64,000 nucleotides of DNA, taken from positions 62,001 to 126,000 of the forward strand of contig JACQZI010000010.1 in assembly GCA_016207825.1 (NCBI GenBank), in the 5' to 3' direction. Position 1 is the stretch's first letter, and the number at the start of each line of letters is the position of its first letter. This stretch comes from Planctomycetota bacterium. GTDB lineage: Bacteria; Planctomycetota; MHYJ01; JACQXL01; JACQZI01. Position numbers and translations under genes: made by a program. Positions 15,521 through 53,162 of this stretch are shown here, in pieces. The notes under the pieces were generated by a model. It had not been told where the DNA came from and searched no databases. It worked only from the letters and a program-made list of their open reading frames with translations.

Positions 15521-17761
15521 ATGATAAATTATCCGGAGGAGGTAAAGAAACTTGGCTGGCTGAAACAATATTTCAGCAAAAACATTATTTTCCATATCCT
15601 GGGCATTTTTACATTTATTCTATTTCTCGGTTATCTTTCTTTCGTTTCATCTGCGAACACAACCAAAAACGGAGTAAAACAAACCGTGACATCGTCAGCT
15701 GGAATATTCAGCCATCTCATCAGCAACTATTTCACGGAAGACTTAAGCTGCGTCAATTCACATTTAAAAATATTTGATTATGCGGGAATCGCGAAAAGGC
15801 AGGATAAAAAAAGGGCGGCCGATTTAGCCAAACAAATTCTTACCCGTCATAACAAATTCACTTATATTATTTATTGCGATAAAAACGGGAAAACCTGGCA
15901 TAGCGAACCCGGTAATATTATACCAGCTAATTACAATATTGACCGTGAAGCATGGTTTTCAAAGGCTTTAAAAACCTCTAACCCGTATATAGCAAAAACA
16001 ACTGTCGGGCGGCAAAATTCCTTCGCGCTCATAACCCCTTATTATGAAAATAACCAGCTGCTCAATATTATAGTTACCGGATACAAACACTCTTTCCTTT
16101 CTGAATTATTGCTGGAATACGGCACTGACGCACAGATTTCATTCTGTATCTTTGACGACACCGGTGATGTAATCTTTAACTCGGAGCCTTCCCAGGAAAA
16201 TATTGCCGATTACCCGGCAGTTAAGAAAGCGCTGGCCGGCAACAGCGGCACGGAAGAATTCGTTTTCGCCCCCTATAAAAACGAAAGGATTATCGCGGCG
16301 TATTCACCGCTCAAGGAATTAGACCTCGGTATATTCGCTTACCAGACAACGCGCACGGCTTACCGCCCTTTCCGCCTGCAAATAGTGCAAATGATAATAC
16401 TGCTTTTTTTATTCTTCATACTGGCAAGCATTGCCGCAATCACGCTGATTAACATCTCGCAGAGAAACAGGAACCTTTATGAGCAAACGTCCAAACACGC
16501 CGATGAGTTGAATATCCTTTACAAAATATCGCGTGTGGCAACGGAATCATTGAAATTAAGCGAAGTTTTAAACAATTCGTGTAACGAAATCATGGAACTT
16601 CTCGGAATGGATGTAGTCGCAATATATCTATATGAGGAAAACATAAAGCGCCTGGCCTTGAAAAGTTACTGCGGCCGTGTAAAAGCGGCTTCGGCCGGGC
16701 TGATACAAAGTGGAACGATATTAGAACCGACCAAAGGCATAACAGGGGAAGCTTTTACCACGGGCAAACTGGTCGTCTGTGATGACCTGGGAACGATTTC
16801 TTCTACCCCATTTGCAGCCGGGCTTAAAAAGGAAGGTTTCAAAACAGCCATGGCAATTCCTATCAAAGGACGCCTTAAAATATACGGCGCGATGATTGTT
16901 TCGATTAAAATAACACGCCCGATAACACCGGCGGAAAAAGAGATAATCAAGGTCATCGGCACAATCATAGGCAACGCCATTGATAATATCAACGCATTGG
17001 AATACGATAAAGAACTCCAGAAAGAGACTCGTAAAAATCAGCAGTTGAAAACCGATTTCATTTCCATGATTTCCCACGGATTGCGTACGCCATTAAACAT
17101 ATTAAAGGAGGAAATCTCGCATACACTGGCAAACCCGTCGGGCACAATGGGACAAGATATTGCCCAGCACCTGTTATCCGTAAGGATGGAATTGGAAAGG
17201 CTGACGCACCTCGCAAATAATCTTTTATCATTTTCCCTGCTTGAATCGGGTAATATAGAACTTAAACAACGCTCTCTGGATATTAATACACTATTCAAAA
17301 ACGCCATCGCATTGCTTAATCCTTACGCCACAGTTAAGAAGGTTGCAATTAATACCGATATTCCGGAAAATCTTCCCAACGCCATGGCAGATATTGACCG
17401 GATATTCCAGATAGTCGTTAATCTCATCGATAACGCCATCAGGTTTAACCGGGAAAGCGGATGGGTATCGATTAAAGTGAAACAAATAGAACAGAAATCG
17501 CTGGAAATCAGGATAACCGATACCGGACAGGCCTTCCCTGATGAAGAAACCGTGAAACTGATGAAAGAACCGATAGAACAGATTTTAGACAAGCAAAAAG
17601 GCGTAAGGTTTGAACTCTTTGCCGGCAAGAAAGGCGTGAGACGCCTGGAATTGGTAATGAATAAACTTATCATCGAACTCCATAGGGGAAAATTCTGGAC
17701 AGAAAGCACGCCTGAAGGAAACGCCAGTTTTTGCTTCACTTTGCCGATACATTTGGTATAA
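15521..17761 (+). CDS. Membrane sensor histidine kinase (dCache-GAF) with degenerate ATPase motifs
   Basis: A 746-residue inner-membrane sensor. TM1 is at about residues 22-44, followed by a periplasmic dCache-like domain (~50-270), TM2 (~287-312), a GAF domain (~345-490) and a dimerisation/phosphoacceptor domain with His519 in ISHGLRTPLN. The ATPase domain keeps an N box (VVNLIDNAIRF). The G1 motif is DTGQAF instead of DTGxGI, and the GLGL loop is replaced by GVRRLEL. ATP binding may be altered. No response regulator is adjacent. The gene is divergent from the zinc-uptake run. A GGAGGAGG string occurs after the ATG and does not precede any in-frame start. Confidence 0.88.
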   Translation: MINYPEEVKKLGWLKQYFSKNIIFHILGIFTFILFLGYLSFVSSANTTKNGVKQTVTSSAGIFSHLISNYFTEDLSCVNSHLKIFDYAGIAKRQDKKRAADLAKQILTRHNKFTYIIYCDKNGKTWHSEPGNIIPANYNIDREAWFSKALKTSNPYIAKTTVGRQNSFALITPYYENNQLLNIIVTGYKHSFLSELLLEYGTDAQISFCIFDDTGDVIFNSEPSQENIADYPAVKKALAGNSGTEEFVFAPYKNERIIAAYSPLKELDLGIFAYQTTRTAYRPFRLQIVQMIILLFLFFILASIAAITLINISQRNRNLYEQTSKHADELNILYKISRVATESLKLSEVLNNSCNEIMELLGMDVVAIYLYEENIKRLALKSYCGRVKAASAGLIQSGTILEPTKGITGEAFTTGKLVVCDDLGTISSTPFAAGLKKEGFKTAMAIPIKGRLKIYGAMIVSIKITRPITPAEKEIIKVIGTIIGNAIDNINALEYDKELQKETRKNQQLKTDFISMISHGLRTPLNILKEEISHTLANPSGTMGQDIAQHLLSVRMELERLTHLANNLLSFSLLESGNIELKQRSLDINTLFKNAIALLNPYATVKKVAINTDIPENLPNAMADIDRIFQIVVNLIDNAIRFNRESGWVSIKVKQIEQKSLEIRITDTGQAFPDEETVKLMKEPIEQILDKQKGVRFELFAGKKGVRRLELVMNKLIIELHRGKFWTESTPEGNASFCFTLPIHLV

Positions 17762-19208: not shown

Positions 19209-20012
19209 ATGAAAATTATCGCCATTGAAACATCCGGGATAAAAGGCGGAGTGGCTTTGATGGACTGTCCCATTCCAACTGTCCCGATGAAATCGGGATT
19301 AATCGGGCGTCCCCGAACCACGCATAAGCGGGGTGAGCGGGGTACCGCCACAGGACGCACCACGGAATACCGATTTACCAAAGGCATGGTGCACGGGAGA
19401 TACCTCGTCCCGGCAATACAGAAAGGACTCAAAGAACTCAAATGGAAAACATCTGATATCGATATGATAGCGGTCGATATCGGTCCCGGCTCCTACACCG
19501 GCTTACGGGTCGGCGTGGCAACCGCCAAGACATTAGTTTATACATTAAACAAGCTGAGACATAAAAAAACTGTTTTGACTACGGTTGTTTCTCTGGATGC
19601 CATGGTGAAAAATATCCGCCAAGACTATAAGTTTATCTGCCCGATGATAGACGCGCGCTGGAACCAGGTTTACAGCGCCATATATAAAAACACCAACGGG
19701 ATTTATAAAAGGATATCCGATTACCTTGCTATCAGACCGGAAGAATTAGTAAAACGATTACCGCCGGAGGTACATATTTTCGGGGACGGATTAACCAGAC
19801 CTGCCCGACCTGACGACCGTTCAGGCGGGTACAAGGATATATTCAAAGGCAAGGGAATTACTTTCGGCGATGAAAAGACCTGGTATCCGCGGCCGAAATA
19901 TATTGCCCAACTCGGGCTGGAAGAGTTTAATAGGGGAAAGAAAACGGACCCGATAAAACTGGTGCCGTTGTATTTAAGATTGACCGAAGCAGAAATGAAG
20001 AAAAAGATATGA
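19209..20012 (+). CDS. tsaB: tRNA threonylcarbamoyladenosine synthesis protein TsaB
   Basis: TsaB is the inactive ASKHA partner that supports TsaD in making t6A at position 37 of ANN-decoding tRNAs. The N-terminus MKIIAIETSGIKGGVALMD and the IGPGSYTGLRVGVATAKTL motif (from about residue 91) are diagnostic. Between them the family normally has a short beta-hairpin. Here residues ~20-50 are an inserted Gly/Arg/Thr-rich stretch encoded by a dispersed GC-rich element (19266-19358). The HGRYLVPAI helix follows normally, so the frame is intact. The stop overlaps the start of the GxxExxY gene (ATGA). tsaD is not in view. Confidence 0.9.
   Translation: MKIIAIETSGIKGGVALMDCPIPTVPMKSGLIGRPRTTHKRGERGTATGRTTEYRFTKGMVHGRYLVPAIQKGLKELKWKTSDIDMIAVDIGPGSYTGLRVGVATAKTLVYTLNKLRHKKTVLTTVVSLDAMVKNIRQDYKFICPMIDARWNQVYSAIYKNTNGIYKRISDYLAIRPEELVKRLPPEVHIFGDGLTRPARPDDRSGGYKDIFKGKGITFGDEKTWYPRPKYIAQLGLEEFNRGKKTDPIKLVPLYLRLTEAEMKKKI
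19266..19358. repeat. Dispersed GC-rich element inserted in tsaB
   Basis: It contains attaatcgggcgtccccgaa followed by aagcggggtgagcggggt. An intergenic copy at about 22867-22910 has the same order with a few changes, and a third copy is in the sigma factor gene (33050-33095). It adds about 31 in-frame codons. Confidence 0.8.
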
Positions 20013-20404
20013 CCACAGAGAACACAGAGAAAACCTATTTATTTAAAGATATAACCGATAAGATTATCGGGGCAGCAATAGAAGCCCATAAAATATTAGG
20101 TCCAGGATTGCTAGAAGGAATTTATGAAGCAGCGCTAATCAGGGAATTCGCCCTGCGAAATATTAAATACGAACAGCAAAAAGAAATAGCATTAACGTAT
20201 AAAAACTCTAATATAGGAAACCATAGGATTGATTTATTAGTTGAAAACGAAATTATCGTAGAATTAAAATCCGTGGAAGAATTACACCCTATTAATGATG
20301 CGCAACTTATAACCTATCTTAAAACGACCGGTAAAAGAGTCGGCTTATTAATAAACTTTAATGTTAATCGCCTTAAAGACGGAATTAAAAGAATTATAGT
20401 TTAG
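20009..20404 (+). CDS. GxxExxY protein (PD-(D/E)XK nuclease-like), copy 1
   Basis: A 131-residue protein with the family signature GPGLLEGIYEAAL (GxxExxY) and the nuclease-like core RIDLLVENEIIVELKSV (Asp, then Glu-x-Lys). The family belongs to the PD-(D/E)XK superfamily by fold, and its biological role is unknown. The first residues (MTTENTEKT) are encoded by the left arm of an 18-bp perfect inverted repeat that brackets the gene. The stop lies just before the right arm. The ATG overlaps the tsaB stop. It is separated from asnS by 35 bp that include the right arm. A divergent second copy is at 24323. Confidence 0.9.
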   Translation: MTTENTEKTYLFKDITDKIIGAAIEAHKILGPGLLEGIYEAALIREFALRNIKYEQQKEIALTYKNSNIGNHRIDLLVENEIIVELKSVEELHPINDAQLITYLKTTGKRVGLLINFNVNRLKDGIKRIIV

Positions 20405-22295: not shown

Positions 22296-22581
22296 ACCGC
22301 TTTACACCACTCTCTATATCATTTAGGTATACAGAGGTTGCCGTTTAGGCACACTATCCATGCCGTTTAACTATACAAAGATTATCGTTTAGGTATACTC
22401 TCCTTGCCGTTTTCCTATACTATCTATATCATTTACCCCTACCATCTATACCGTTTTACGCCGCCATCCATGCCGTTTGGATATACTAAGATTGCCATAT
22501 AACCATACAGGGATTACCGCATAACTATATAGATTATACCGCATAGATACACAGATTATATGGTTTACCCCCACCGGGATA
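22296..22581. repeat. 22-bp tandem array, about 13 units
   Basis: Thirteen consecutive 22-bp units (286 bp) have the loose consensus gccgtttaggtatac followed by a c/a/t-rich end in -at or -tt. Starts fall at 22318, 22340, 22362, 22384, 22406, 22428, 22450 and so on. Units differ by several bases, but the period is kept exactly. No spacers and no open frame. Confidence 0.88.
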
Positions 22582-22939: not shown

Positions 22940-24262
22940 TCAAATAACCCGATATAGCATCCCCAGAAACTGGGTGGCGTTAAATGGTTTCGGGGCGTAG
23001 TCGTCCAACCCTTTTTCAGAGGCTATCATCACGGCGAACTGGTTATCATTCTCAGTCGGTAACCCATGAGACCCTTTAATCAATTCCGGGCTTAACGGAA
23101 TTGACATGGTCTTCATATCGACAAACAATTCGCACGGGTCATAACCGGGTTTATTGTGGATATCAACTGTTCTGGCATAAAGCGGAGTCCTGGCGTCATC
23201 CTCCCAGTAATAATAGGCAAACCATTTATCTTTCTTGCTTAAGGCAATAAGCTGTCCACTGCGAGGATTGTGAATCTGCAATCCTTTTTGCCCGTTCCGG
23301 TCAAGCACTTTATCAACCCCCTCTGCCGATTCAAGGGCTTTCTTCGCCTTTTCTATCGCATCAGGCTTGCAATAAATATGGGCAATCTGGTGGTCAACCA
23401 CGGCAAAGGCATCGCTCCCTTCAAAATCTATGTATTCAGCGCCGCTTATTTCGCGCGTCTTTAATAATCCGGCTTTCCGCAATATCCTGTTCGGAAAAAC
23501 CGCGCCGCTTACCGGAACCAGCCCGTATTCGGAAATAATAAATAGAACGGCATTCTCCTTGCCGTATGCTTCCCTGAATTCCATAAACCTGCCGGCGATA
23601 TCGTCCGCCACTTTGAGTTCTTTTTCCACTGCCGCTGAATCGGGCGCGTGGCGCTGGGAAACGTAATCCAGGTGAGGGATATACGCCAATAACATATCAG
23701 GCGCTTCCTCTTTCAATGTGCGCAACGAGGCTTCGGCAATCCATTGGCTGGACTTTGCGTTTGCCATAGGACCCCAATAATCCCTTAAGCTAAAAGGCCC
23801 AATTTTCGCGGTAAGTTTTTCATAATATCCGTCCGGTTTGGAATAGCACCATTCGGTCATGCCTTTATCCGTATGAATCGGAGACGGGGTGACCACGATA
23901 TCGGCATTGATGTATTTACTGTTCTGCCAGAAGAGAACCGCCACTTTGGAAGCCTTGTTCCTTTCGCGCATGATATCCCAGATGCGGGGGCCATTGACAA
24001 GCGCGTTTTCCTGTCGCCAGAATTCCGGTTTCATGGTGCCGCTGTCAAAATACCCGTTGCCGACAATACCGTGGTCTGCCGGCGGCTTGCCGCTTAACAA
24101 AGTCGCCTGGACCGAGCAGGTTACCGCCGGGAAAGACGGTATCATGGCACGATAGGTTCCGCTTGCTTTAAGCCTGGTTATATTCGGTATCAATGATTTC
24201 TTCTTTAATAAAGCCGGAGAAAGCCCGACGATATCCAGGACGATTACTATTTGCTTTTTCAT
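22940..24262 (-). CDS. Alkaline phosphatase/phosphodiesterase superfamily protein (EboF-like)
   Basis: A nucleotide pyrophosphatase/phosphodiesterase-type protein of about 440 residues. It has the metal aspartate in IVLDIVGLSP (Asp10), the nucleophile threonine in PAVTCSVQATLLSG (Thr48), a PHLDYVSQRHAP motif and a C-terminal SHGLPT. The usual SDHGM metal motif is SEYGL, which I recall as a feature of the subfamily found in Ebo/EDB clusters. I chose the ATG at 24262, 9 nt after AAAGG. The ATG at 24271 abuts the Shine-Dalgarno. It is the last gene of the operon and is separated from UbiA by a GxxExxY cassette. The substrate is unknown. Confidence 0.88.
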   Translation of the reverse strand: MKKQIVIVLDIVGLSPALLKKKSLIPNITRLKASGTYRAMIPSFPAVTCSVQATLLSGKPPADHGIVGNGYFDSGTMKPEFWRQENALVNGPRIWDIMRERNKASKVAVLFWQNSKYINADIVVTPSPIHTDKGMTEWCYSKPDGYYEKLTAKIGPFSLRDYWGPMANAKSSQWIAEASLRTLKEEAPDMLLAYIPHLDYVSQRHAPDSAAVEKELKVADDIAGRFMEFREAYGKENAVLFIISEYGLVPVSGAVFPNRILRKAGLLKTREISGAEYIDFEGSDAFAVVDHQIAHIYCKPDAIEKAKKALESAEGVDKVLDRNGQKGLQIHNPRSGQLIALSKKDKWFAYYYWEDDARTPLYARTVDIHNKPGYDPCELFVDMKTMSIPLSPELIKGSHGLPTENDNQFAVMIASEKGLDDYAPKPFNATQFLGMLYRVI

Positions 24263-24280
24263 CCAGACCATCCTTTCTTA

Positions 24281-24735
24281 AACACGAATCAGACGAATAG
24301 AACGAATCCCACGAATAATAATTCAATTAGCGATACGTTTATATTCGACCTTCTTCTTCCCGAAATTTATAAGGATTCCGAGTTTCAACCCGGTTGCCTT
24401 TAAGTATGAGTATAATTGCGCTTCAAACACTTCATTTAATTCTGAAACGGCTTTAAGTTCCAGTATAACCTTATCTTCTACTATTAAATCTAACCTAAAA
24501 TCGCCCAAATCTTCATCCTTATAAATAACTTTTACCGGTTTCTGTGTTTCATAACTAATCTTCCGGTCACGAAATTCCCGGCATAGCGCTTTCTCATACT
24601 TATCCTCCGGAAAACCGGGACCAAGAATATTATGAACCTCAAATACCGCTTCCATTATTTTATAGGATATATCCTTGTAAATAAAATCGTCCATATTCGT
24701 GTTATTCGTCTAATTCGTGTTATTCGTGTTATTCT
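24281..24735. mobile_element. Candidate cassette: GxxExxY gene bracketed by inverted 9-bp units, copy 2
   Basis: The left arm (24281-24318) is four 9-bp units: aacacgaat, cagacgaat, agaacgaat, cccacgaat. The right arm (24694-24735) is the same type inverted: attcgtgtt, attcgtcta, attcgtgtt, attcgtgtt. They enclose only a GxxExxY gene inside the Ebo-like operon. Confidence 0.68.
24323..24694 (-). CDS. GxxExxY protein (PD-(D/E)XK nuclease-like), copy 2
   Basis: A 123-residue relative of the protein at 20009, with GPGFPEDKYEKAL (GxxExxY) and the core RLDLIVEDKVILELKAV (Asp, Glu-x-Lys). The C-terminal QLYSYLKATGLKLGILINFG segment is conserved between the copies. The ATG directly follows an acgaat unit of the flanking array, and no separate Shine-Dalgarno is seen. 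It interrupts a run of five metabolic genes on the same strand (UbiA upstream, phosphodiesterase downstream) with which it has no obvious link. Function is unknown. Confidence 0.88.
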   Translation of the reverse strand: MDDFIYKDISYKIMEAVFEVHNILGPGFPEDKYEKALCREFRDRKISYETQKPVKVIYKDEDLGDFRLDLIVEDKVILELKAVSELNEVFEAQLYSYLKATGLKLGILINFGKKKVEYKRIAN

Positions 24736-25440
24736 TTACGTCATCTCGAAAATTATTCCTAATACCAAAGCCGGTATCATCAACGATGCTATTATACCTG
24801 CCTGCCAGTAATATCCGTTCATAAAAACCAGCAATCCGTCTATAAGCGGGATAATCAGGATTCCTGTTTTCACTATCTTGCGAAGCGCGGGCTTATCATT
24901 CTCTAATCTAGCCAGTGCTGTGGTTATTGCAATGTAGATAAATATTATTACAGGGAATATTATAAACTCTTTGGGGAATGCCCCCCCGATATTTAATCCC
25001 AATTCCCAATTAAAAGCGCGGCATAGCGGCATGAATATGATGGCGGTAATAAACCATCTCTTAAACAATGAATCATAAAGAAACGCGCTTAATGCGATAA
25101 CGGAACAAATAACGCCTGCGCTTGCCGAAATCATAAACCCGCAAACAATTCCCGCCATGAGCAAAAGGATTCCAAAGGACAAAGCTATTGACGGCTTGAT
25201 AACGCCCGAAGGCAAAACCCGATTGGGACGCTCTTTTTTATCACGTTTCAAATCGAAGTAATCATTAAGCGCCATCCCGCCGCTGTAAAGCGCGGCTGAG
25301 GCAACCGAGCCGAATATGATGTGGGCGGTTGCCGGGAAAACGCTCCCTGCAACAACCATCCCTGCCCAGACATTTGATATGGCAGTGAAAATATTGGGCA
25401 GGCGGATTAATCTTAACAAACCAATGATAAAACGAAACAT
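24736..25440 (-). CDS. UbiA family prenyltransferase (EboC-like)
   Basis: A polytopic inner-membrane enzyme of 234 residues with about seven to eight hydrophobic segments. It carries the first Asp-rich motif NDYFDLKRDKKERPNR (Asp60, Asp63, Asp67), where the family binds Mg-prenyl diphosphate. The second region is reduced to YDSLFKRW. The short length and this motif fit EboC-type members. It would prenylate an aromatic or polyol acceptor. Given the inositol-phosphate synthase in the operon, an inositol-type acceptor is conceivable but unproven. The downstream cassette array begins at its stop. Confidence 0.88.
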   Translation of the reverse strand: MFRFIIGLLRLIRLPNIFTAISNVWAGMVVAGSVFPATAHIIFGSVASAALYSGGMALNDYFDLKRDKKERPNRVLPSGVIKPSIALSFGILLLMAGIVCGFMISASAGVICSVIALSAFLYDSLFKRWFITAIIFMPLCRAFNWELGLNIGGAFPKEFIIFPVIIFIYIAITTALARLENDKPALRKIVKTGILIIPLIDGLLVFMNGYYWQAGIIASLMIPALVLGIIFEMT

Positions 25441-25449
25441 ATTTTACGA

Positions 25450-25503
25450 AATACAGAACACGAATCTTACCCCGAAAACATTCGGGGTGCTATTCGTGTT
25501 ACT
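25450..25503. repeat. Small inverted repeat between UbiA and TIM-barrel genes
   Basis: Arms aacacgaat and attcgtgtt surround an inner hairpin ccccgaa/ttcgggg. No gene is enclosed. It uses the same 9-bp unit as the cassette at 24281-24735. Confidence 0.6.
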
Positions 25504-26332
25504 CTTTCTCTGAAACAAACTGTTTAAGGTGTTGTAAGCTTTGGCTCCCGACTTCCACCGGATTATCCTGATAAGGATACAATTCAACGCTGATAAATCC
25601 ATCATAGCCTATATCTTTTAACGCCGTGAATACCGGGGGAAAATCTATTTCACCCTGCCCGCATATCTTGTGGTTATGGACCCTGCCTGAAATATCTTCT
25701 ATATGGACGTGATGGATATAAGGCGCGAGTTTATTTATGACCTCCGCGGGGTTTTCACCGGCGCACCAGAAATGGCCGATATCGCAGTTTAATCCGATAA
25801 TTGATGTATCAACCTTCCTGATAAACTCCCCGAATTGGACTGAGTTCTCCATCAGTAAATCCGGTTCCGGCTCAACCAGTATTTTCACACCCAATTCTTT
25901 GGCAAGAGGGATAACTTCTTCCAATCCTCTGATAAATATCTCCATTGCGTCCTTGCGGGTAAAATGCTCCAAACGGCCCCCGGGCTGGATGGAAATATTC
26001 GGGCAATCAAGCTCTTTGGCAAGGTGCAAGCATTGCTTTGTATGTTGGATGCGCATGTCCCTGTCTTTCGCTTCCTTCTCAATCCATGAAGGATGATGCA
26101 TATCCCCTATGGCAAACAGGGTGAAGGTATTCAGATTGGAAACCGCCAGATTTTCTTTCTTTAAGAGCGATTTTAAAGCACTGAGCTTTCGAGCATCTTG
26201 ATAATCTGGGGGGTAAAGGTGGGGACGGTCTGCCATGATTTCCACCCCGGCAAAGCCTATTTCCCTGATAAGGCGTATGGTTTCTTCCAGGCTGTATTTC
26301 TTAAAAGCATTCGTGCTGTAAGCGAATTTCAT
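25499..26332 (-). CDS. Sugar-phosphate isomerase/epimerase-like TIM barrel (EboE-like position)
   Basis: An AP-endonuclease-2 fold TIM barrel of 277 residues, starting MKFAYSTNAFKKYSLEETIRLIREIGFAGVEIM. Metal-ligand motifs visible are VEPEPD (Glu), GLNCDIGHFW (Asp, His), HVHIEDI (His) and a terminal ISVELYPY (Glu). Such proteins isomerise or epimerise sugars or inositols. Family members act on inosose, so a role in modifying an inositol derivative would match the neighbouring inositol-phosphate synthase. This is an inference. About 140 bp, including a dispersed repeat, separates it from the TatD gene upstream. Confidence 0.85.
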   Translation of the reverse strand: MKFAYSTNAFKKYSLEETIRLIREIGFAGVEIMADRPHLYPPDYQDARKLSALKSLLKKENLAVSNLNTFTLFAIGDMHHPSWIEKEAKDRDMRIQHTKQCLHLAKELDCPNISIQPGGRLEHFTRKDAMEIFIRGLEEVIPLAKELGVKILVEPEPDLLMENSVQFGEFIRKVDTSIIGLNCDIGHFWCAGENPAEVINKLAPYIHHVHIEDISGRVHNHKICGQGEIDFPPVFTALKDIGYDGFISVELYPYQDNPVEVGSQSLQHLKQFVSEKE

Positions 26333-26371
26333 TTACATACCCAAATCTTTCTTAATCAGATTACGCCACAT

Positions 26372-26455
26372 TGTCATTGCGAATCCCGATTTATCGGGAT
26401 GAAGCAATCCCTTTTAAAATGGGATTACTTCGTCACTATGTTCCTCGTAATGACA
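26372..26455. repeat. Dispersed repeat (tgtcattgcgaa...cgtaatgaca)
   Basis: Imperfect inverted ends tgtcattgcgaa and ctcgtaatgaca enclose the hairpin atcccgatttatcgggat and gaagcaatccc. It occupies the gap between the TIM-barrel and TatD genes. Confidence 0.65.
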
Positions 26456-26473
26456 TTATAACAAAACTATGGT

Positions 26474-27274
26474 TTAATCCTCCAGCCGGAATTTAGGCGA
26501 TTGGGAGAAAAAGCCAAAGGCATTCCGGAAAACCACCTTTTCTATCTCCTCTTCGCTTAGCCCGAAACCCGGGAATTGCCTTGCCGCTTCCGCCACATTC
26601 AAGGGGTAAGATTTCCCCCAATCAGCCGAGCTGTTTATCAGGATGCGGCCTGCCCCGTATTCTTTTATCATCTTAGCGGCGCGCTCGTTGCTTACCTTGG
26701 TCGGATAAAGGGTCATCCCGGCAATGATATCCGGTTCTTTCAAAGTAACGCCGATTGTTTCCTCGGTATTATGGTCCATCACGTAGCGCTTCATATCCAC
26801 CCCGACCTTTTTCATGATAGCAAGCATCCTCTCCACCCCGACCCGCTTATTGGTATGGGGGGAATGGATTATCACGAGCGACTTATGTTTCTCCGCCAGC
26901 TCCACCTGGCGTTTAAATACTTCTTCCTCATCCGGGGTAATCAAATCCAGCCCGATTTCCCCGACACCGATGCAATTAGGGTGTTCCAGATATTTCCCCA
27001 GGTTATTGACCACCTCAAATGCAATCTCGGTATGGCGGGCTTCTTTGGCATTGACTCCGAGCAGGCTGTAATGGTATAAGCCGTATTTGCGCGCCCGGCC
27101 GTTCTCAAAGTTAAGCAAATGCTGGAAATAATCGTAATAACTGCCAGCCGATGTCCGGTCTGTCCCCGACCAGAAAGCCGGTTCAATCACCGCGACATAA
27201 CCGGATTTCTTCATCGCTTCGTAATCATCGGTAGTCCGGGCATACATGTGAATATGCGGCTCGATAATTTTCAT
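26474..27274 (-). CDS. TatD-family metal-dependent hydrolase (EboB-like)
   Basis: A 266-residue amidohydrolase-fold protein. Metal ligands are visible at His7 and His9 (PHIHM), Glu106 (GVGEIGLD), His137 (IIHSPH), a MDHNTE motif and Asp in SSADWG. It is more divergent from housekeeping TatD than usual, in the way EboB-type proteins are. In Ebo/EDB clusters this gene goes with UbiA and a phosphodiesterase, as here. The substrate is not known. It ends 2 bp from the end of the inositol-phosphate synthase gene region, so the two are probably translationally coupled. Confidence 0.87.
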   Translation of the reverse strand: MKIIEPHIHMYARTTDDYEAMKKSGYVAVIEPAFWSGTDRTSAGSYYDYFQHLLNFENGRARKYGLYHYSLLGVNAKEARHTEIAFEVVNNLGKYLEHPNCIGVGEIGLDLITPDEEEVFKRQVELAEKHKSLVIIHSPHTNKRVGVERMLAIMKKVGVDMKRYVMDHNTEETIGVTLKEPDIIAGMTLYPTKVSNERAAKMIKEYGAGRILINSSADWGKSYPLNVAEAARQFPGFGLSEEEIEKVVFRNAFGFFSQSPKFRLED

Positions 27275-27276
27275 CT

Positions 27277-28485
27277 TTATCTCTCTTTCTTAGTTTTACT
27301 TAAATATTCCTCCAACAAATGCCACTGCTGGTGTAAATCGGAAACGTCCGTCCCCAGCGGCTGTTTGAAAAAGAGCCCCAGATGGCTTAAAATGCCGGAT
27401 TCCTTCCGGCGATGCGCCAGGTCAACCAACCGGATTAAGTCAATGACCAGCGGAGCCGCCAGCATCGAGTCGCAACCCTGCCAGATAAACTGCATTGACA
27501 TCTTGGTCCCCAGGAATCCTTCGAAATGTATGAAATCCCAGGCAACTTTCCATTCGCCCAGGGACGGGACATAATCAATGCCGGTATGTGTATGCGGCTT
27601 ATATCCAAGCGCCTGCGGAAGCACCGTGTCCTTGGCGCTGAGCTTGGACTTCAGGCTTTCCGGGTCAGCCAGCACCTTGCCATCCATATTTCCCAGGATA
27701 TTATAACCCTGCCAGGAAAGTATTTTCAGCGCCCGGTATTTGAACATGCCTGCCAAGACGGCCTTGATAAGCGTTTCTCCGGTCTTGCCGTCTCTTCCGG
27801 CATGCGGTATCGCCTGTTGTTTGGCAAGCTGGAAAAGCGCCGGGATATCCGACCCGACAGAAGGAGTAAAATTAATATAAGGGCAATTGCATTTGAAAGC
27901 GACATACGCGTAAAGCGAGCTTGCCCGCGCTATTTCCTTATGGTTAGTCTTAAGCATTTCCTCAAATCCATCGATGCTTTCGGTATGGATACCCGTCATG
28001 GCAGGCGGTTCGGTGGATGCCAGGTTTAGGACAATTACCCGCTCCAGATTATTTGATTCCTTGAACTCGGTAATATCCCGGCTTAATTGCCCGACTATTT
28101 CCGCAAGAGACAACGCATCCAGCTTGCTGGTTTCGCCGACTGCCTCGGAAACGCCTTTCCCGCACCCGACGGTTATTCCCAGGCGCGTGTTCTTTTGGAG
28201 GGTCTCAAAATACGCGCCGATACTTTCCACGACCCGGCGGCCAATATGCGCCTCTTCAGCGAGACGTTCAAAGCTTTCCCGTGCATTGCCTTTGCGCACC
28301 TCATGCCCGCCAAAGATTATCCGGTCAAATGGGGTGAAACCAACATTCTTAAAATCGGGGAGTTCAGTAATCAATCCGATTGGCTCGGCAAGCTGCCGGG
28401 CAAATATCTCGGCTCCGGCAACCGCGGCGGAAGCGACCGAGCCGGACGCGCCGATTATCCAAACACCAAGAGATTTATTTCCCAT
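27277..28485 (-). CDS. ino1: Inositol-3-phosphate synthase
   Basis: The enzyme cyclises glucose 6-phosphate to inositol 3-phosphate with bound NAD. Visible features are the Rossmann motif WIIGASGSVASAA at the start, LNLASTEPP, YINFTPSVGSDIPAL, GRDGKTGETLIKAVL (the KTG active-site lysine region) and YNILGNMDGKVLADP. The length of 402 residues is normal. It lies 13 bp after the TonB receptor stop and directly upstream of the TatD gene. In classical Ebo clusters the cyclase is a dehydroquinate-synthase-like EboD. Here the cyclitol-forming enzyme is Ino1 instead, which suggests a different cyclitol product. Confidence 0.92.
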   Translation of the reverse strand: MGNKSLGVWIIGASGSVASAAVAGAEIFARQLAEPIGLITELPDFKNVGFTPFDRIIFGGHEVRKGNARESFERLAEEAHIGRRVVESIGAYFETLQKNTRLGITVGCGKGVSEAVGETSKLDALSLAEIVGQLSRDITEFKESNNLERVIVLNLASTEPPAMTGIHTESIDGFEEMLKTNHKEIARASSLYAYVAFKCNCPYINFTPSVGSDIPALFQLAKQQAIPHAGRDGKTGETLIKAVLAGMFKYRALKILSWQGYNILGNMDGKVLADPESLKSKLSAKDTVLPQALGYKPHTHTGIDYVPSLGEWKVAWDFIHFEGFLGTKMSMQFIWQGCDSMLAAPLVIDLIRLVDLAHRRKESGILSHLGLFFKQPLGTDVSDLHQQWHLLEEYLSKTKKER

Positions 28486-28498
28486 TTTCTATCCATTA

Positions 28499-30616
28499 TT
28501 AGAATAAACCTTCGATTGTGACAATAAAATTCGTTCCTGATTCGTTGTTGCCGGAACCATGAATGCGGTAATCACGGCCGGTAATATTTTCCACCCCCGC
28601 CGAGATATTAAAGTATTTATTTAGCCTGGTTCCTCCTTTAAGATTATAAATCGTGTAGCCGGGCGTGCCGTCCGGTGGTATTCTTTGCGTATCCAGTTTA
28701 TCCAAAGGAGATAATCTATCCTGCCGGTCGGCTATCTTAACCATGCCTTCAAGCCATGTTTTACTATCAACATTTTCCCATCGGCCGCCAAAGGTAAATG
28801 CCGGAGGCGGTATTTTGGACATGGGTTTTTCTTCTTTAACCAAGGCCGAGGTCGGATAAGTATCCACCGCGCCTCTCTGGCAACCGGCGCCGGCAAAAAT
28901 ACTCCACTGGTTATCTATCTCGTATTTCCCGCTTAATTCGCCGCCGTAAATAAAGCCGTCCCCGATATTCGCTTTTTGCACCTCGTTCTTGCCGCTGACG
29001 ACATTACCGGTCGGATAACGGACAATCATATCCTTGATATTGGTATGGAAAACCGCGCCTTGTACGCTGAATGTTTCGTATCTTGCCTTGGCTCCGGTTT
29101 CTATGGTGGTAAAATATTCCGGCTTCAATCCGGGAGAAGGCATTTCTATCTCATTGGAAAGCGCGATATCCAGCCGTGACAGGTCGGAAAGGTTCGGCGC
29201 CCTGAACCCCTGGGAAACACCGCCGAATATATTCCAATTCTCATTCGCTAAGTATGCCAGGCGCAAATTACCCACCAAACTGCTCCAGTTATCTTCCAGG
29301 GAAATCTGCTTCTTTGTATTCGGGTCGTAACCCTTATCCGCAGAGACATCAACCTTGGTATAACGCGTGCCGGCGGTCACTGTCATCTTTTGCGTCAGCG
29401 CGTATTCATCCTGGATATAAACGCCGCCCATATCATACGTGGCGTTATCCGCGATTGAGCCCTGGATTCCAATCGATTCCAATGTACCGTCGGATTTGTA
29501 ATTTCGGGCAAAGGAATTGGCGTTGTCGCGGTAAAACTCCACGCCGTAACTGAGGTAACCCAAAGAAGACTTACATTCAGCCTGCGCAAAGAACCCGGCT
29601 GTGCCGATGGTAAAGCCCTGCGTCTCTATTTTATCATTGGAACGCAGGCGGAACTGCTCCTCATCCTGCGCCTGGTAAGAAAAGCTGAATTTCGCCTTGT
29701 CTCCCATCCAGCCGGCTTCATCCTTATGATATTGGACGTAAAAAAGCTCTCTGGCATGGTCCAATGAACGCTCCTTATCCGTTCCGATGGCTGTCCCACG
29801 CCATGATATGCCGTAAACGGTCGAATGCGTGCGCCAGGCATCCGGCTGGGTAACCTTTTGGTAAACCAGGACCAGCTTATCGACTGAAGATAATTTATAA
29901 TCCAGCCTGATATCATAATCATTTTCCCGATAGCCTGTTTCGGGTTGTAAACCGACATACCTGCCTCCGGCGAGGTCGCCAAAATCCTTGCCTGAAGCTC
30001 CGGCAATAAACGACAACGATTTATTGACTGTGTATGACGATTCCAATCTTGTTACGGCTGATTTATCCGCACTTGAATAACGCTGAACCATCCGGCCATG
30101 CCATCCATCTTTCTCTGGGACGGGAGTCAGGGCATTGACCGCGCCGCCGATTGAATCGCTCCCGTAAAGGACGGAAGAAGGGCCTTTGACTATTTCCAGT
30201 TGTCCGATGGTAAAAGAATCAACCGTATTCCAATATTCATTCGGCCCATCGCGGAAGGCGGAGTTATTCAAACGGACACCGTCTATCATAAAAAGGGTGC
30301 GGAAGCCGGTAAACCCGCGCAGGAACGGGGCGCCCTGCCCCTGCGAGGTCTTCTGGACGGTGATTGAGGGGTCGGATGAAAATATTTCGGGGGTCGTCCG
30401 GCTCATCTGTTGGTTCTGGATTTCCTCTGCGCTAATAACCTCAGCGATATAAGGCGACTCCAAAACCTTCTCCTCATGGCGCGAGGCGGTCACGATTATC
30501 TCATCGGCTTCCTCGCGTTTGACCCCTATAGTTTCTGAATCATCAGCTAAGGCAACCGGAATACAAGGAGTTATCACCACAAAGGCGCAAAGGGCACCAA
30601 GAAATACATGCTTCAT
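28499..30616 (-). CDS. TonB-dependent outer-membrane receptor
   Basis: A ligand-gated outer-membrane transporter of about 705 residues. It has a signal peptide (FLGALCAFVVITPCIPVALA), a TonB box EIIVTASR, a plug domain (IQNQQMSRTTPEIFSSDPS, FLRGFTG, LEIVKGPSSVLYGSDSIGG) and a beta-barrel ending in TNFIVTIEGLF. It is closest in style to FepA/CirA/BtuB-type receptors. The ligand is not evident. I chose the ATG at 30616, which follows AAAGGA and starts the signal peptide; an ATG at 30640 adds eight residues. It is first in the operon with ino1, TatD, TIM barrel, UbiA and the phosphodiesterase, which links it to that pathway's product or to a metal. Confidence 0.93.
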   Translation of the reverse strand: MKHVFLGALCAFVVITPCIPVALADDSETIGVKREEADEIIVTASRHEEKVLESPYIAEVISAEEIQNQQMSRTTPEIFSSDPSITVQKTSQGQGAPFLRGFTGFRTLFMIDGVRLNNSAFRDGPNEYWNTVDSFTIGQLEIVKGPSSVLYGSDSIGGAVNALTPVPEKDGWHGRMVQRYSSADKSAVTRLESSYTVNKSLSFIAGASGKDFGDLAGGRYVGLQPETGYRENDYDIRLDYKLSSVDKLVLVYQKVTQPDAWRTHSTVYGISWRGTAIGTDKERSLDHARELFYVQYHKDEAGWMGDKAKFSFSYQAQDEEQFRLRSNDKIETQGFTIGTAGFFAQAECKSSLGYLSYGVEFYRDNANSFARNYKSDGTLESIGIQGSIADNATYDMGGVYIQDEYALTQKMTVTAGTRYTKVDVSADKGYDPNTKKQISLEDNWSSLVGNLRLAYLANENWNIFGGVSQGFRAPNLSDLSRLDIALSNEIEMPSPGLKPEYFTTIETGAKARYETFSVQGAVFHTNIKDMIVRYPTGNVVSGKNEVQKANIGDGFIYGGELSGKYEIDNQWSIFAGAGCQRGAVDTYPTSALVKEEKPMSKIPPPAFTFGGRWENVDSKTWLEGMVKIADRQDRLSPLDKLDTQRIPPDGTPGYTIYNLKGGTRLNKYFNISAGVENITGRDYRIHGSGNNESGTNFIVTIEGLF

Positions 30617-30717
30617 AATAAATTTTCCTTTATTTAACATTACCTATATAAGCGCAGGGAACGGGGAAAAGGTTCGGTCCGATAAATAGAATTTTAGTTT
30701 TTGTTTATGGGGTAGAC

Positions 30718-31003
30718 TGGCTCGCACCATGGAGCATAGTAGTTATTATAATGGGGTCGGGTAGCTTTTAGAATGGGGTCTGGTAGCTCTTACCTATACG
30801 TATTATAGCTTTTAGAATGGAGTCAGGTAGCTTTTACCTATATGTATTATAACTTTTAGGGGTGAGTAATATAGCTTTTACCCGTATGTATTATGGCTTT
30901 TAGAGGGGAGTAATATAGCCTTTACCCGTATGTATTATAGCCTTTAAGATGGGGTCGGGTAGCTTTTATAATGGAGTCTGGTAGCCTTTAGGGGGGTGTA
31001 TAC
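30718..31003. repeat. 22-bp tandem array with alternating unit types, 13 units
   Basis: Thirteen units of exactly 22 bp (286 bp) all begin tagcttttag or a close variant. Two unit types largely alternate (one continuing aatggagtcagg, the other cctatatgtatta), giving a 44-bp higher-order period. It lies upstream of the TonB receptor. There are no spacers and no coding frame. Confidence 0.93.
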
Positions 31004-31211
31004 CCGCCCCCTCCGCTACGTTGCGGGGGCTATAGCCCCCATTTTAATTCATTACGGGGACGCCTGATTCTAATATATAAGTAGGAAAGCCCCGACATTC
31101 GTCGGGATGCCGATTGATTATAAGATTGAATAGCAAGGACAGCCCCTTCGTCTGAAACCAGCTTATATTGAGTTTAGGGTGCTCCTCTATATATGGGGTA
31201 GGGTGGGGAGG
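31004..31211. repeat. GC-rich palindromic element between arrays C and D
   Basis: The gap holds cgccccctccgctacgttgc and gggggctatagccccc, a perfect 16-bp palindrome (31026-31041), then ttacggggacgcc and ccccgacattcgtcgggatg. The rest is unremarkable. No gene is seen. Confidence 0.55.
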
Positions 31212-31497
31212 CGGCTCTAAAAGCTATCCCAAACGGCTCCAAGAGTTATCCCAAGCGGCTCGAAGAGCTACCCCGAACGGCTCCAAGAGTTACGGGAAAC
31301 TGCACCAAAGGGTATGGAAAGCGACTCCAAGAATCCCGGGGAGCGGCTCCAAAATCCCTATGGAACGGCACCTAAAGGTATAGGGAACGGCTTTAAAAGG
31401 GCTGGGAACCCGCACCTAAATCTATCCGGGACTGCACGAAGAGGTATGGGGTACGGCTCCAAAAAGTATCCCGACCGGCACCTTAAAAATCAGGTAA
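31212..31497. repeat. 22-bp tandem array, 13 units
   Basis: Thirteen units of 22 bp (286 bp) have the loose consensus cggctccaagagctatccc. Starts at 31212, 31454 and 31476 confirm that the period holds without drift. Units are more degenerate in the second half. On the opposite strand the core reads agcttttagag, close to array C. A frame stays open through part of it, but I do not regard it as a gene. Confidence 0.9.
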
Positions 31498-52660: not shown

Positions 52661-52946
52661 GCTATACGGATAGTCTACTGTAACTATCATGGAGCCTCTC
52701 CGCAGCTATCATAGAGCCCCTCCGCAGCTACCATGGAGTCTGGGTGCGGCTATGATGAGGTCTCACCACGGCTATCATTGAGCCTGACCACAGCTATCAT
52801 GGAGCATAGGCGTAGCTATGATGCAGTCTCTCCGCAGCTACCATGGAGTCTCTCCATGGCTATAATAGAGTCTGGGCGTAGCTATGATGGAGTCTGGGCG
52901 CGGCTATCATGGAGTCCCTCCGCGGCTATCATGGAGTCTCGCCATG
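52661..52946. repeat. 22-bp tandem array, 13 units
   Basis: Thirteen units of 22 bp (286 bp) have the consensus gctatcatggagtctctccg, with alternating C/G in the fifth-to-sixth positions and ggg/ctc in the second half. Starts at 52683, 52705 and 52925 keep phase. A partial unit follows (gctatagatg). No spacers and no coding frame. Confidence 0.94.
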
Positions 52947-53122
52947 GCTATAGATGTATGGCACTAAGGGAGGGGACGTATGGGACTGGGGTAGTACCAC
53001 CCCTGATAACGATTCTGAAAAGAATAATAGGCTTTTTTGAGAGTAATTCTCAATATACCGATGATTCGGGCATGTATCAATATATCCCTTTAATGATGGG
53101 AAACAAGCTAATTATATGAACC

Positions 53123-53154
53123 GAGTTGACAAATTATCTAAATTGAGTTGACAA
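53123..53154. repeat. Direct repeat of gagttgacaaa
   Basis: Two copies, at 53123-53133 and 53144-53154, are 21 bp apart. Each includes TTGACA, a good -35, but no clear -10 follows at the right distance. The rest of 52960-53160 holds only a small hairpin (ttgaga/tctcaa). Confidence 0.5.
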
Positions 53155-53162
53155 AAACCATT

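Follow-up and report, generated by a model that had tools for sequence, protein, structure and literature searches.

Why does a gene for an enzyme of the myo-inositol-1-phosphate synthase type (Ino1) lie among relatives of the ebo genes, in the place of the sugar-phosphate cyclase EboD? This question is raised by a stretch of 64,000 nucleotides from a Planctomycetota bacterium (GenBank assembly GCA_016207825.1, contig JACQZI010000010.1, positions 62,001 to 126,000), which we refer to as the window in the following. The six-gene ebo cluster, eboABCDEF, has been proposed to make an isoprenoid-cyclitol product (PMC5133447). It has been linked to the export of a scytonemin precursor into the periplasm, to the EDB cluster of Pseudomonas fluorescens and to nematode deterrence (PMC6282210), and an EboC homologue has been shown to farnesylate 8-hydroxyquinoline-2-carboxylic acid in vitro (PMC9235831). 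We found that the gene set of the window recurs in other phyla and in archaea, that Ino1 and EboD nearly exclude one another, that a short TIM-barrel protein goes with Ino1, that the cyclase has been switched several times independently, and that the Ino1 lysines are intact. We consider it likely that these observations reflect an Ino1-type ebo pathway, in which two alternative cyclitol modules feed one EboB/EboC/EboF core that builds a prenylated polyol.

The window belongs to a genome of 2.9 Mb (G000), which is 97.6% complete. In line with its phylum, a large share of the closest named relatives of the window EboB are assigned to Planctomycetota. The genes of the locus, listed here in the order of their transcription, are:

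28499-30640, minus strand: TonB-dependent receptor (PF00593/PF07715)
27277-28485, minus strand: Ino1, 402 aa, myo-inositol-1-phosphate synthase type (PF07994 and PF01658)
26474-27274, minus strand: EboB-type, TatD-like metal-dependent hydrolase, 266 aa (full-length identity to EboB and placement in the EboB tree)
25499-26332, minus strand: short xylose-isomerase-like TIM barrel, 277 aa (PF01261, 151.7 bits)
24736-25440, minus strand: EboC-like UbiA prenyltransferase, 234 aa (PF01040; best NCBIfam match EboC)
24323-24694, minus strand: GxxExxY (PDDEXK_3) gene (TIGR04256, 147.9 bits)
22940-24271, minus strand: EboF-type SEYG phosphodiesterase, 443 aa (PF01663, 203 bits)

The genes named in the initial annotation, whose reasoning did not mention the GxxExxY gene between UbiA and the phosphodiesterase, were all confirmed at their positions on the minus strand. 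Scans for promoters and terminators gave results near chance. The genome encodes one Ino1 and one EboB-type protein (E<=1e-25). EboD and EboA had been described as missing, and indeed no homologue of either lies within the 64-kb window, to which the EboA search was confined; for EboD, the search of the whole genome gave no match either (E<=1e-60), its sole dehydroquinate synthase being AroB (TIGR01357, 378.7 bits, cut-off 305). Likewise, the genome has no match to EboE (NF035939) at E<=1e-30. The window thus holds every component of what we call an Ino1-type ebo set, namely Ino1, the short TIM, EboB, UbiA and EboF, without EboD.

The relatedness of these proteins to the Ebo proteins is closest for the two hydrolases. 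When compared with five EboD-type clusters, the window EboB shows 41-45% identity to its counterparts over the full length, and it is placed among the EboB rows of the EboB tree; for the phosphodiesterase, the identity to the EboF proteins of such clusters is 38-41% across almost the entire length. The UbiA protein is more distant: its best match in an EboD-type cluster has 38% identity over 178 residues, and it scores 148 bits against the NCBIfam EboC model (NF035940, cut-off 250), which is nevertheless the best family match of this shortened protein. It retains the motifs NDxxDxxxD and YDxxxK and is about 60 residues shorter near the C-terminus than its relatives, a shortening that recurs in a genome of the same order (L037) and that may remove membrane helices in this order. 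Despite this, its predicted model is confident (predicted local distance difference test score of 88.6) and resembles archaeal lipid prenyltransferases, matching digeranylgeranylglyceryl phosphate synthase and the UbiA of A. fulgidus (template modelling score of ~0.64, by query length). Since the former enzyme attaches a prenyl chain to a hydroxyl group of a polyol phosphate, this resemblance suits, but does not show, the prenylation of a cyclitol by the window UbiA. The initial annotation had equated the UbiA, TatD, TIM and phosphodiesterase genes with EboC, EboB, EboE and EboF. This stands for EboB and EboF and, in the sense of an EboC-like protein, for UbiA, whereas the TIM barrel reaches 32.9 bits on the EboE model (cut-off 250), which rules it out as EboE. 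By the six-gene definition, the set is therefore related to ebo without being a member.

For the Ino1 group, the closest solved structure by profile is that of A. fulgidus Ino1 (1u1i, 422 bits). Two invariant columns of the group, K285 and K374, correspond to the lysines mutated in the entries 3qvw and 3qvx, so that, as judged from the alignment, the catalytic lysines are intact. The family also includes a synthase of five-membered cyclitol phosphates (6k96).

The linkage of Ino1 to these genes is not peculiar to the window. A survey of other loci found Ino1 near related genes in haloarchaea, Streptomyces, Saccharothrix, Gemmatirosa and a second planctomycete class. Two genomes of the same order as the window (L037, L038) keep the order Ino1-TatD-TIM-UbiA as far as their contigs reach, and the phosphodiesterase is also present in the one whose contig reaches far enough. 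In the other planctomycete class (L197), the order is Ino1-EboB-TIM-UbiA-TIM-phosphodiesterase, with Ino1 split over two frames in the assembly. Its occurrence in several phyla, and in Archaea as well, puts the linkage of Ino1 to ebo-like genes far beyond chance.

Haloarchaeal clusters (Halobaculum, Natronococcus, Halocatena, Halobellus, Halorussus) contain TatD, TIM, UbiA, TIM, Ino1 and phosphodiesterase. They share EboB, the short TIM, UbiA, Ino1 and the phosphodiesterase with the window, as well as the lack of EboA, EboD and EboE, but differ from it in having two short TIM genes and in that Ino1 and the phosphodiesterase often lie on the opposite strand. Clusters with a UbiA of the SCO3242 family (NCBIfam NF045897) on Streptomyces plasmids, ordered Ino1-UbiA-TIM-EboA-EboB-EboE-phosphodiesterase, likewise combine Ino1, UbiA, short TIM, EboB and phosphodiesterase without EboD. 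Unlike the window, they encode EboA and EboE, have another gene order and carry a UbiA above the SCO3242 cut-off, below which the window UbiA falls. As these Ino1 clusters retain EboA, the presence of Ino1 does not entail that EboA is lost. The Streptomyces coelicolor genes SCO3241-SCO3243 (isomerase, transferase and myo-inositol phosphate synthase), which are annotated in the CDA region, presumably form such a cluster; SCO3242 and SCO3243 are listed in one paper as transferase and myo-inositol phosphate synthase. The sets of Gemmatirosa and Saccharothrix are similar to those of Streptomyces, with EboE present and EboA not detected, and Saccharothrix has a separate, distant Ino1 in addition to the linked kind. 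As a side observation, Streptomyces pseudovenezuelae (L189, L151) apparently has two ebo-like clusters in one genome and one Ino1 of this clade.

EboD-type clusters, by contrast, lack Ino1; examples are those of Mycetohabitans, Deinococcus, Aureibacter, Roseivivax, Ketogulonicigenium, cyanobacteria and Bacteroidota. What the canonical cluster has in common with the window are homologues of EboB, the EboC-like UbiA and EboF, a TIM-barrel enzyme and an enzyme that forms a cyclitol, whereas EboA, EboD and EboE are replaced, at the scale of the window, by Ino1 and the short TIM. The eboG variant (PMC5133447), which we saw in Deinococcus (L081), lacks EboA, as do the 64 kb of the window, but retains EboD and EboE.

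The two cyclases are nearly exclusive, as is seen both in clusters and in whole genomes. When only complete clusters are considered, that is, those with EboB, UbiA and phosphodiesterase all in view, each of the 29 EboD-type clusters has one EboE and neither Ino1 nor short TIM, and each of the 13 Ino1-type clusters has at least one short TIM and no EboD; a further 11 show neither cyclase in view, and in four of these (L113, L146, L151, L165) Ino1 is found elsewhere in the genome. Among 246 genomes of the phylum, 137 have only Ino1 (a count that leaves out one partial 46-bit match), 49 only EboD, 2 both and 58 neither (p = 4e-19), and the short TIM occurs in 130 of the 137 Ino1-only genomes vs 4 of the 49 EboD-only genomes (p = 7e-31), both values coming from Fisher tests that ignore shared ancestry. 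For the short TIM, the two subclades described below were pooled and the profile threshold (E<=1e-32) was set before the search. Within a single family (f31), the tabulated genomes comprise seven with Ino1 and TIM and five with EboD, without exception. The 26 genomes to which the other loci belong include 10 with EboD; only one of them, an acidobacterium, has both cyclases at good scores, its Ino1 being more distant (286 bits).

On the EboB tree (117 rows), the cyclase type changes 7 times, compared with ~24 in shuffles, and at least 5 of these changes are forced by branches with a support of 95 or more in the Shimodaira-Hasegawa-like approximate likelihood ratio test. In the 69 rows that carry both labels, Ino1 and the short TIM show no mismatch, the absence of the TIM being judged at the locus only for most EboD rows among them. 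We therefore regard the initial idea of a variant Ebo/EDB gene set, with Ino1 in the place of EboD, as supported by both the cluster comparison and the genome survey.

These distributions also bear on a rival explanation, in which Ino1 is there for the ordinary synthesis of inositol lipids or osmolytes and adjoins the ebo-like genes without a role in their pathway. Ino1 does have other known roles, the window gene is the only copy of its genome, and most planctomycetes carry Ino1 and EboB at separate places, all of which would agree with such a scenario. However, a link of Ino1 to the core is seen in haloarchaea, Actinobacteria, Gemmatirosa and two planctomycete classes; even where it is unlinked, Ino1 tracks the short TIM and excludes EboD; and Saccharothrix has its distant second Ino1 besides the linked kind. 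We consider this explanation quite improbable.

The short TIM itself is, by its profile scores, related to IolO, IolE and hydroxypyruvate isomerase, but forms a separate short family. It scores 88.5 bits against IolO (cut-off 300) and 64.8 bits against IolE (cut-off 290), in both cases below the equivalog cut-off. It retains the motifs EPEP, DIGH, HVHIED and VEL; Glu, Asp and His residues in motifs of this type form a metal site in the TIM superfamily. The family divides into two subclades with moderate tree support (81-87). The first, which occurs where EboE is absent, groups the window TIM with the TIM proteins of Nitrososphaerales and the first of the two in haloarchaea; the second comprises the other haloarchaeal TIM together with its counterparts in Streptomyces and Gemmatirosa. 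Tentatively, the first subclade takes over the role of EboE, with the second being the partner of Ino1.

Ino1 is always accompanied by one or more additional kinds of isomerase, as though the job that EboD does alone took two enzymes. This can also be read as isofunctional replacement, in which EboD on the one hand and Ino1 with the TIM on the other deliver the same ring to the same core. EboD would then cyclize glucose 6-phosphate, like 2-deoxy-scyllo-inosose synthase, and not sedoheptulose 7-phosphate. It would fit this reading that the swaps recur while the rest of the core stays common, and that the structures homologous to EboD include 2-deoxy-scyllo-inosose synthase. Yet this synthase matches EboD more weakly than dehydroquinate synthases do, and EboD falls into the tree region of sedoheptulose 7-phosphate users (PMC5133447). 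All in all, we deem a common ring unlikely, although worth considering.

In the Ino1-type pathway that we favour, the core would comprise EboB as a metal-dependent hydrolase, the EboC-like membrane prenyltransferase and EboF as a phosphodiesterase or phosphatase, plus one TIM enzyme, either EboE or a short TIM. One module would consist of EboD, which would supply the cyclitol. In the other, going by what is known of the respective families, Ino1 would turn glucose 6-phosphate into myo-inositol phosphate, and the short xylose-isomerase-like TIM might adjust the ring or a precursor. EboC would then prenylate the cyclitol, the phosphodiesterase would trim the phosphate, and the product may be a lipid with a carrier or a protective role. 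The product of the core is probably a prenylated cyclitol. Both the absence of eboD in two of three Planctomycetes, whose ebo genes are unclustered (PMC5133447), and the actinobacterial fusions of EboA to a xylose-isomerase-like domain (PMC5133447) are expected from this model.

Several points weigh against it. The literature that we searched holds neither a product nor in vivo chemistry of the Ebo pathway, and the position of EboD near enzymes that use sedoheptulose 7-phosphate (PMC5133447) means that the two modules may give different rings. The phylum-wide p values do not account for common descent, and while phylogenetically independent pairs agree in 4 of 4 cases, there are only 4 such pairs, too few for significance on their own (p = 0.125). 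Furthermore, Haloarcula (L124) and Nitrososphaerales (L115, L125) have the core and a TIM with neither a good Ino1 nor EboD in the genome, where the cyclitol may come from a third source or by uptake, and of the 190 genomes of the phylum with EboB, 17 lack both cyclases, perhaps in part owing to incomplete assemblies. Lastly, the model predicts a second short TIM elsewhere in the window's genome, and none was found there. With a single TIM, which belongs to the first subclade only, and without EboE, the window would be a reduced version of the system; alternatively, and tentatively, this TIM does both jobs.

Two genes of the locus appear not to belong to the system. The TonB receptor had been proposed to lead the operon by 13 bp; this spacing between its stop and the start of Ino1 is correct, and the two may be co-transcribed here, but the receptor was rejected as a part of the system, as it is adjacent to an Ino1 set only in the window. 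No homologue was found at L037, L038, L197 or the other Ino1-type clusters examined, and its best scores are with heme receptor families. This also touches on the idea that the set serves to break down or salvage cyclitols or sugars, where the receptor would import a substrate that the TIM and TatD proteins degrade, an option suggested by the resemblance of the TIM to IolO/IolE/IolI enzymes and by the receptor gene 13 bp upstream. We give it hardly any credence, given that Ino1 is biosynthetic, that UbiA is a prenyltransferase, that the receptor is unconserved and resembles heme receptors, and that scytonemin export in Nostoc needs the same core (PMC6282210).

The GxxExxY gene was likewise rejected; it is absent from the relative L037 and belongs to a multi-copy kind, with at least 6 full-length copies plus fragments in the genome. 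Two of these genes lie in the window (20009-20404 and 24323-24694), of which the one within the operon adjoins a TATTCGTGT repeat (24694-24734). In L037 (genome G211, 15926-17457), two genes occupy the gap between UbiA and the phosphodiesterase, one for a DNA methyltransferase and another that is restriction-like, as read from their translations. The window also contains degenerate, intergenic tandem arrays of 21-22 bp units (2571-2831, 22328-22560, 30739-31289 and 52680-53155), with super-periods of 44, 66, 88 and 105 bp and a consensus that differs per array; they flank the ino1/ebo-like operon on both sides.

In the open literature, we found no earlier description of Ino1 in ebo clusters, most subscription papers lying outside our coverage, and the word 'inositol' is absent from the main text of PMC5133447, PMC6282210 and PMC9235831. 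What is new is the breadth of the association over two domains of life, the near-exclusion of the two cyclases across a large number of genomes and the association of the short TIM with Ino1. The repeated exchange of the uncharacterized EboD for Ino1, a family of known chemistry, supports a cyclitol in the ebo product and predicts that, in some organisms, this product contains inositol; it would also explain why planctomycetes apparently lack eboD. Somewhat more speculatively, there could be a second ebo chemotype in Bacteria and Archaea, in which Ino1 and a dedicated isomerase give rise to prenylated inositol-derived lipids and have repeatedly been swapped with EboD, the products being prenyl-cyclitols with C6 or C7 rings. 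Streptomyces and haloarchaea offer themselves as experimental hosts for tracing the product through inositol labelling.

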